Below are positions 4,763 through 38,504 of a stretch of 64,000 nt of DNA, piece by piece. Every line of letters begins with the position of its first letter. Position 1 is the first letter of the stretch. A program made the translations under genes and the position numbers. Source of the stretch: Holothuria scabra (lineage: Eukaryota; Echinodermata; Holothuroidea; Aspidochirotida; Holothuriidae); NCBI GenBank assembly GCA_037179385.1, contig CM074179.1:67475806-67539805 (forward strand). The letters are read 5' to 3'. Below the pieces are notes generated by a model. It did no database searches, was not told where the DNA came from, and saw only the letters and a list, made by a program, of their open reading frames with translations.

Positions 4763-5107
4763 GTCAGGAATGGATTGGGTGCTACTCTACACAAAACGCA
4801 GAAATAGGATCCATCGGCTATATCCATTGCACCTTTCCAACGCCATTCAAAGCGGTGTACTGGTATGATGATGTCACTAATCCAGCGGCAAATCCACTAT
4901 TAAGTTACACTCGTGAATACACAGAGTTGGGTAACGTGAATATCTATAAGAGCGGCCATGGGTATGACGATGGAGATTTCGATGTCATGTTGAATGGATC
5001 TTTAATTATTACAAAAGTTTCATTGCAACATGAAAAAATGTTTAAGGCTTTATGCATAGACCGTAAAGACGTTGGTCGCACCTTTGTGGTGACTTTGACA
5101 GTAACTG
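4763..5107 (+). CDS. Exon: first Ig-like (V-type) domain
   Basis: The acceptor AG is at 4761-4762 after a pyrimidine-rich tract and the donor is GTAAGC at 5108; both splice phases are 1, as is usual for Ig exons. The 115 residues contain the Ig signature: cysteine in GYIHCTF, tryptophan in VYWYDD, and the second cysteine in FKALCID. An extra cysteine lies near the start (GCYST). The final strand reads VVTLTVT. The open frame continues upstream of 4763, but that part lacks Ig character and is taken as intron. Confidence 0.8.

Positions 5108-38504: not shown

Follow-up and report, generated by a model that had tools for sequence, protein, structure and literature searches.

A candidate Ig-NACHT membrane receptor with an altered ATPase core in the sea cucumber Holothuria scabra

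The sea cucumber gene described here probably encodes a single-pass type I membrane receptor of the AjNLRC4 kind, in which an immunoglobulin (Ig) ectodomain, a transmembrane helix and a cytosolic NACHT domain are joined in one protein. Judged from its sequence, this would be a phagocytic or endocytic receptor whose NACHT serves as a nucleotide-binding scaffold. By textbook account NLRs are cytosolic sensors, and the design seen here, in which an Ig ectodomain and a membrane helix come before the NACHT, has probably expanded into many tens of genes. The gene lies in a window of 64,000 nucleotides of H. scabra (GenBank assembly GCA_037179385.1, contig CM074179.1, positions 67,475,806 to 67,539,805), and the coordinates below are positions in that window, on its plus strand unless otherwise stated. 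Two orthologous sequences have been found elsewhere, P0001 and the A. japonicus protein P0002, and these share with the window gene a set of changes in the ATPase core of the NACHT.

Gene structure

When rebuilt by splice sites and reading frame, the gene has 17 exons with canonical AG/GT borders and a single frame of 1293 aa, the whole spanning about 41 kb with the coding sequence split by 16 introns. Sixteen of the 17 exons lie inside the window. The signal-peptide exon (MTSIGQKTILLILLFATKAF) lies 2.7 kb before it, at G000:C1:67473063-67473123, where it reached an alignment score of 33, with 9 for the runner-up in the approximately 34.8 kb scanned; candidates for such an exon were also sought inside the window, and none was convincing. 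Exon 2 (4763..5107) encodes Ig1 (C43, W54, C118) and matches P0001 residues 15-135 at 82.6% identity, exon 3 (5520..6164) encodes Ig2 and Ig3 together, and exon 4 (6567..6896) encodes Ig4, all three being of phase 1-1. Exon 5 (7086..7259) carries a stalk, the transmembrane helix (approximately residues 484-502) and a basic stop-transfer segment, as indicated by splicing, tblastn, hydropathy and charge. It is followed by two short linker exons, the 65-nt exon 6 (7832..7896), which encodes a cytosolic linker with the acidic segment SEEAQPLTE (residues 532-540), and the 31-nt exon 7 (16746..16776). Exon 8 (17654..19167) contains the NACHT, winged-helix and helical regions, recognised by Pfam and by motifs: Walker A GGTGYGKT (621), Walker B (698), the sensor-1 segment VLVLSLSSP (745) and FIHTIYQQF (929). 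The C-terminal tail begins in exon 9 (19517..19713) and continues through exons 10 (25751..25833), 11 (28534..28616), 12 (31546..31569, 24 nt), 13 (32109..32204), 14 (33484..33537), 15 (33757..33819) and 16 (38173..38209) to exon 17 (38425..38504), which ends with the stop codon.

The exons from 4763 to 19167 joined in phase when rebuilt from the sequence, and among the border options tested a single in-frame combination was obtained in the fit to P0001, with which the window protein shares 945 of 1281 aligned residues (73.8%). A tblastn comparison of P0001 with the window matched 14 of the 15 exons confirmed from the initial annotation, as far as the stop codon at 38504. The remaining one, exon 12, gave no match of its own and is placed by frame, while exons 6 (E 0.043) and 16 (E 0.22) gave matches that are weak when taken singly. 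The initial annotation had described a chain of sixteen exons in phase, and fifteen of these stand with AG/GT borders in one frame. The exception is a 25-nt microexon (8615..8639, PFIQSPLY), which has no counterpart in P0001 and, judging by relatives, is not an exon; it also failed the splice filters, which required a pyrimidine-rich acceptor and so excluded it. At this position P0001 has a linker of 10 residues, DISKEKKEIK, and exon 7, which scored best of the 8 candidates left by the filters in the interval 7950-17600, has exactly this length and phase. Its independent support comes from the match in length to P0001, not from the filters. The proposed end of the gene is likewise retained as to the stop codon, while the AATAAA cited with it (38500-38505) overlaps that codon. 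A further AATAAA lies at 38782, and the 4.5 kb around the NACHT exon (L001) contains 7 where 14.5 would be expected; since the hexamer is frequent by chance here, its presence near the stop carries little weight.

Several other features were observed in the introns. A non-LTR retrotransposon with endonuclease, reverse transcriptase and zf-RVT domains occupies 9428-14527 on the minus strand between exons 6 and 7, and an ORF1-like frame, recognised by eye, forms part of this region at 13706-14527. Between exons 9 and 10, open reading frames resembling a Penelope-type fragment (by eye, YIDDILG) lie at 21340-22211 on the plus strand, together with a tRNA-Thr (TGT) gene at 25151-25225 that is flanked on both sides by similar sequence. 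Pfam returned nothing for the frames at 13709-14527, 21340-21885 and 21717-22208. A repeat of approximately 300 bases was seen by eye in several copies and both orientations, beside (AT)n tracts, at 17060-24780.

Ig and NACHT domains on one transcript

Ig and NACHT domains are almost surely carried on one transcript, as indicated by the relative P0001, which is uninterrupted from end to end on a contig of about 4.2 kb. P0001 has 1287 aa, comes from a contig of 4181 bases with the source tag lgn, and was found by a protein search with the chain from 4763 to 19167, at 74% identity over 100% of this query. Its uncut frame on such a contig, where the genome has 16 introns, would most simply make it a cDNA. 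Two further full-length relatives were found by protein search, namely P0002 (A. japonicus BSL78_21625, 42% identity) and P0003 (Holothuria leucospilota, 31% identity), and each of the three covers 98-100% of the query as one protein. The protein and profile searches for relatives scored the 8000 candidates sharing most words with the query, and among these a profile search seeded with the three relatives recovered two of them; because only those 8000 were scored, the absence of an orthologue, for instance from H. leucospilota, carries no information. Contigs of 3.7-7.3 kb are the source of 15 family proteins (P0001 and 14 others, by hand count) in which a P-loop past residue 400 is found together with a transmembrane helix. 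In addition, a gene on contig C11 of the same genome shares the layout, with a signal exon, Ig1, a single exon for Ig2/3, Ig4, a transmembrane segment and NACHT; its NACHT exon has phase 1 at its start and phase 0 at its end, and the donor of its transmembrane exon is uncertain.

The proposal that a single gene encodes an Ig-TM-NACHT membrane protein is borne out by the end-to-end P0001, by the single-protein holothurian relatives and by this layout twin. Next to no credence is left for two neighbouring genes, the first for an Ig receptor that would end after 7306 and the second a NACHT gene that would begin near 17654. Read-through of the transmembrane exon does meet an in-frame stop at 7304-7306 after a short tail, and a LINE lies within the long intron 7896-16746, as such an arrangement might have it. 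Against this stand the three relatives aligned as single proteins, the 15 family proteins on short contigs, and the agreement of the 65-nt and 31-nt linker exons with P0001 in length and partly in sequence. Retention of the intron after 7259 could also yield an additional short Ig-TM decoy that lacks a NACHT, beside the full form. This is unlikely: the frame does stay open for 15 more codons past 7259 before a stop, but a few open codons into an intron are expected by chance, and the relatives listed, which come from searches not aimed at such a form, include none.

Domain composition and membrane topology

The NACHT of the window gene is recognised by Pfam (PF05729, E 6.9e-12), and a profile search of the PDB matches NLRP3 chains (E 6e-12) and NLRC4 (E 1e-4) to an NLR-type helical core. 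Pfam matches in the window's Ig exons are weak and under the cut-off, with no Ig match at all in the Ig1 exon 4763-5107. In the three relatives, V-set domains reach E 3.5e-10 in two and Ig_3 reaches E 1e-12 in all three, and contactin-, Dscam- and CD276-type Ig chains in the PDB match the family profile. The layout of four Ig domains proposed for the window is right in its outline, with the qualification that the Cys-Trp-Cys core found in Ig1, Ig2 and Ig4 is absent from the third, which has no cysteine. No death-fold N-terminus of a cytosolic protein is found, as signal peptide, Ig domains and transmembrane helix all precede the NACHT. Nor does the tail contain a C-terminal LRR array: LRR-like strings number 1 in the window tail, 2 in P0001, 1 in P0002 and 2 in P0003, and in 10 other family tails they number 2-8 in eight and none in two. 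The pattern is a weak hint at an origin of the family from NLRs that had a short LRR region, most of which the window clade would have lost.

The transmembrane helix is clear, its best 19-residue Kyte-Doolittle mean being 3.02. Among 125 proteins (123 from the database, the window protein and the C11 protein), a P-loop lies past residue 400 in 59, and in 55 of these 59 a transmembrane segment precedes it. Topology was assessed in 54 family proteins with a P-loop past residue 400 and a clear transmembrane helix, a set that includes the window protein and leaves out that of C11. Lysine and arginine are richer on the NACHT side in 52 of the 54, equal in 2 and fewer in none, with means per 15 residues of 1.26 before the helix and 6.13 after it. 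Glycosylation sequons in the family proteins amount to 1.62 per 100 aa outside and 0.44 inside. From these charges and sequons a type I orientation with a cytosolic NACHT is inferred, in line with the inside position reported for the NACHT of AjNLRC4, and the same pattern speaks against a general inverted topology of the kind reported for AjNLR-new of A. japonicus. In that arrangement the NACHT would lie outside and the Ig inside, as has been described for PIK48001.1 on the evidence of antibodies, cell binding and 293T cells (PMC13133943). For the window protein it is hardly credible, as the positive-inside pattern in 52 of 54 proteins and the sequon bias favour a NACHT inside. The AjNLR-new paper moreover places the Ig between two predicted transmembrane helices (PMC13133943), whereas the first hydrophobic stretch of the window protein is a signal peptide.

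An altered ATPase core

ATPase motifs are named here, and their roles understood, as in NLRs. An active STAND ATPase is marked by Walker A, a DxxDE Walker B and a sensor-1 arginine; the window NACHT has an intact Walker A, reads DHYHE (within LDHYHE) at Walker B and lacks the arginine. How unusual this is can be seen in an alignment of 135 NACHT sequences, from which 10 of 145 had been dropped for length or for want of a P-loop. The Walker A lysine and the first Walker B aspartate are kept in all 135 and the Walker B glutamate in 134, while the Walker B +3 position is aspartate in 130, histidine in 3 and another residue in 2. Sensor-1 arginine is present in 132 and missing from three, namely the window gene, P0001 and P0002, and these same three alone carry the Walker B histidine and LDHYHE. 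They form a clade with support of 0.995 in a midpoint-rooted tree, in which the clade adjoins C11 (support 0.39) and P0003 (1.0). In a smaller alignment, the sensor-1 arginine has also been lost in 2 of 24 paralogs from the same genome, L055 and L056, which are too short for the alignment of 135. These two loci (G000:C1 33.84 and 33.92 Mb) are near-identical, with GDPGMGKT at the P-loop and TTI where the sensor-1 TTR is expected.

The shared changes in the window gene and its two orthologues suggest an ATPase cycle that is slow or absent. The initial annotation had supposed that outside recognition would be coupled directly to STAND-type oligomerisation, and for this gene such coupling is doubtful because the Walker B and sensor-1 residues are changed. 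A serious though somewhat unlikely alternative is that of an ordinary AjNLRC4-like receptor, in which these changes are tolerated and normal ATP cycling by the NACHT still signals. Walker A, the first Walker B aspartate and the glutamate are indeed intact, and the FIH...QQF segment, which by its position we take to correspond to the winged-helix histidine of NLRs, is retained; the +3 histidine, however, is common to all three clade members despite only 41.8% identity between the window protein and P0002, where aspartate is found in 130 of 135 NACHTs. That the gene is decaying, with the changed motifs and the cysteine-free Ig3 as marks of lost function, is very improbable, given a frame unbroken across 17 exons, a NACHT exon 83% identical to that of P0001 and an LDHYHE that is identical in three sequences. 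A conserved scaffold with an altered ATPase core is the reading retained below.

A juxtamembrane acidic motif

The linker between helix and NACHT contains, in many family members, a short acidic motif that resembles a lysosomal sorting signal. The pattern [DE]xxP[ML] occurs in 38 of 54 family linkers, with a mean of 3.6 and a maximum of 9 in 300 shuffles per linker, and a stricter version, which also demands a hydrophobic residue in the last position, occurs in 29 of 54 (shuffle mean 0.9, maximum 5). As the pattern was defined post hoc on the same sequences, and the proteins are related by descent, this enrichment is descriptive. The window's own EEAQPLTE, encoded by the 65-nt exon 7832-7896, fits [DE]xxP[ML] and not the stricter version (PLT), and lies 35 residues past the helix window; of 41 linkers that match a third, looser form, 34 have the motif at 16-30. 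Sixteen of the 54 linkers are without [DE]xxP[ML]. Two classic signals were considered and set aside: the dileucine [DE]xxxL[LI] is found in 5 of 54 linkers, below the 6.9 of shuffles, and YxxPhi in 52 of 54 (41.3 in shuffles), being near-ubiquitous by composition and not distinctive.

A documented lysosomal signal, DERAPLI of LIMP2 (PMC5297682), has like the family motif an acidic residue, two further residues and then P and L. It differs in that most family motifs have PM as opposed to PL, and adaptor binding by the family motif is putative.

A family within the genome and in other sea cucumbers

Evidence from the genome points to a large family, with many tens of Ig-NACHT candidate genes being probable in this one genome. 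The window's Ig1 exon alone gave at least 150 genome matches. Two merged searches gave at least 175 Ig1 exons and three merged searches at least 164 NACHT loci, and another list, of 94 matches, was left out of the census. A NACHT locus was considered paired when an Ig1 exon lay within 45 kb upstream on the same strand with no NACHT between. By this rule, which concerns position and is not proof of splicing, 87 of the 164 listed NACHT loci were paired, all locus counts being lower bounds. The paralog search proposed with the initial annotation has in this way yielded a positive answer. Among the 87 pairs in the matches listed, the distance from Ig1 to NACHT has a median of 13.3 kb and a range of 4.4-36.3 kb. 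Among the 164 listed loci, an Ig1 exon was found downstream for 2 and on the opposite strand for 3, here without the rule on intervening NACHTs. Random pairing, with strands randomised and Ig1 exons moved by up to 500 kb, gave a mean of 9.0 and a maximum of 16 pairs in 300 runs, and moves of up to 5 Mb gave a mean of 5.2 and a maximum of 13.

Contig C1 holds 71 paired loci among its 115 listed NACHT loci. Five short loci that were fetched are all colinear for Ig1, Ig2/3 and NACHT, although L055 and L056 are near-identical and so are not independent; four of these five have Ig4, three a transmembrane exon by strict scan and two a signal exon. A close second copy of the window gene was not seen, as the genome search with P0001 gave 63-83% identity in window exons only and 28-32% in the other listed NACHTs. 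Unpaired among the matches listed are 77 NACHT loci and 88 Ig1 exons. Some of the unpaired NACHT loci are probably ordinary NLRs; in the first census, 24 of 84 were on C11. Many NACHT loci on this contig have longer open frames (approximately 600-690 aa) and few Ig1 partners, and are perhaps ordinary NLRs. The 88 of 175 listed Ig1-type exons without a NACHT within 45 kb downstream are distributed over C1 (34), C12 (17), C5 (11), C17 (8), C22 (5) and others. Such exons may be parts of receptors whose cytosolic tails are of another kind, or their partners may be absent among the NACHT matches listed. Downstream of one such exon on C12 (L060), no further Ig or NACHT match was found in 6 kb.

In other species, a database search with the NACHT region of an expanded-family query returned 265 hits, the best 120 of which were examined. 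All named entries among these 120 are from A. japonicus or H. leucospilota. By hand count, Ig and NACHT Pfam domains occur together in 41 of them, and the other 79 have no Ig domain, many of these being short. Pairs of Ig and NACHT domains, which it had been suggested should be looked for in other echinoderm proteins, are therefore present in those 41 of the best 120 of 265 hits. One NACHT exon of the genome matches an H. leucospilota protein at 80% identity. Among the 120 entries listed (P0004-P0123), at least 13 bear the name NLRC4, NLRC5 or NLRP14, yet carry Ig and NACHT Pfam domains, so that public names for Ig-NACHT proteins can mislead.

Proposed mechanism and significance

In the mechanism proposed, the Ig ectodomain would bind a microbial or altered-self surface and cluster the receptor, and the juxtamembrane acidic motif would direct the clustered receptors to endosomes or phagosomes. 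On the cytosolic side the NACHT, with its intact Walker A, would hold nucleotide and offer a docking scaffold, for which the actin and Arp2/3 reported for AjNLRC4 are a precedent. In the window gene and its two orthologues this scaffold would be constitutive or ligand-clustered, as opposed to a switch reset by hydrolysis. Membrane location, bacterial binding and phagocytosis are published for AjNLRC4, and may by analogy extend to the window protein.

A bolder proposal, which we regard as rather doubtful, is that of a germline repertoire, in this genome of about a hundred Ig-NACHT surface genes mostly on one chromosome, in which the ATPase-altered window gene would be a shared partner or brake for the expanded members with canonical catalytic residues, many of them sorted through the acidic P-Met/Leu signal. 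If true, this would amount to an NLR network operating at the cell surface. In sea cucumbers one can ask how a surface repertoire is built in an animal that has no lymphocytes, and the window gene raises the question of whether scaffolding by a NACHT can do without normal ATPase cycling.

Comparison with known systems

The combination of Ig and NACHT domains, which the initial annotation had taken to be novel, was published in 2021 for AjNLRC4 of A. japonicus (MN607598). AjNLRC4 has been described as a membrane receptor whose Ig domains bind bacteria and which dimerises and is internalised, with its NACHT binding beta-actin and with actin and Arp2/3 involvement reported (PMC8699970). Activation of caspase-1, bound through the Ig domains, has also been reported (PMC11932488), which fits poorly with a type I topology unless the receptor is internalised and exposed. 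By its published description, AjNLRC4 resembles the window protein in its Ig ectodomain, a transmembrane segment at 483-503, a NACHT at 600-757 and the lack of a CARD, and differs in a second transmembrane segment reported at 776-795 (PMC8699970; PMC11932488). Its cloning primer encodes GTPQYLEL (PMC8699970; PMC11932488), and of the 123 database proteins 4 have PQYLEL in their Ig1. The window gene shares Ig1 and NACHT ancestry with other family members, and AjNLRC4 itself is tied to them only by this primer-encoded motif. P0002 was considered as a candidate for AjNLRC4 and rejected, as it reads SPQYAEHS where the primer encodes GTPQYLEL. It is an orthologue of the window gene by tree (0.995), with LDHYHE, no sensor-1 arginine and 41.8% identity; it is recorded only as a hypothetical protein, and its tail has diverged from that of the window gene.

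Like the window gene, AjNLR-new (PIK48001.1) has Ig, transmembrane and NACHT segments together in one protein, and its authors speak of "genes" with the Ig-NACHT combination; it differs in the inverted topology reported, the comparison being by description (PMC13133943). In the apodid Chiridota heheva, 53 NLRs have been counted, 6 of which are grouped as having additional domains, Ig V-set among them (PMC8913654), so that an Ig V-set accompanies NACHT as it does here, but in at most 6 proteins as opposed to many tens. The NLRs of A. japonicus have been named as an expanded, clustered family (PMC5638244). In the open-licence PMC literature, no census of Ig-NACHT genes for a sea cucumber, no report of an altered-ATPase clade and no sorting-like linker motif of the Ig-NACHT family was found.

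With human NLRP3 and NLRC4 the window protein has in common the NACHT-helical core (profile E 6e-12 and 1e-4). Human NLRs are cytosolic, with a CARD or PYD and a long LRR region, and are not known to have an Ig domain or transmembrane helix. The architecture of the window protein is thus already known from sea cucumbers, and what is new is how large the family is, together with the sorting-like motif and the altered yet conserved core of the ATPase.
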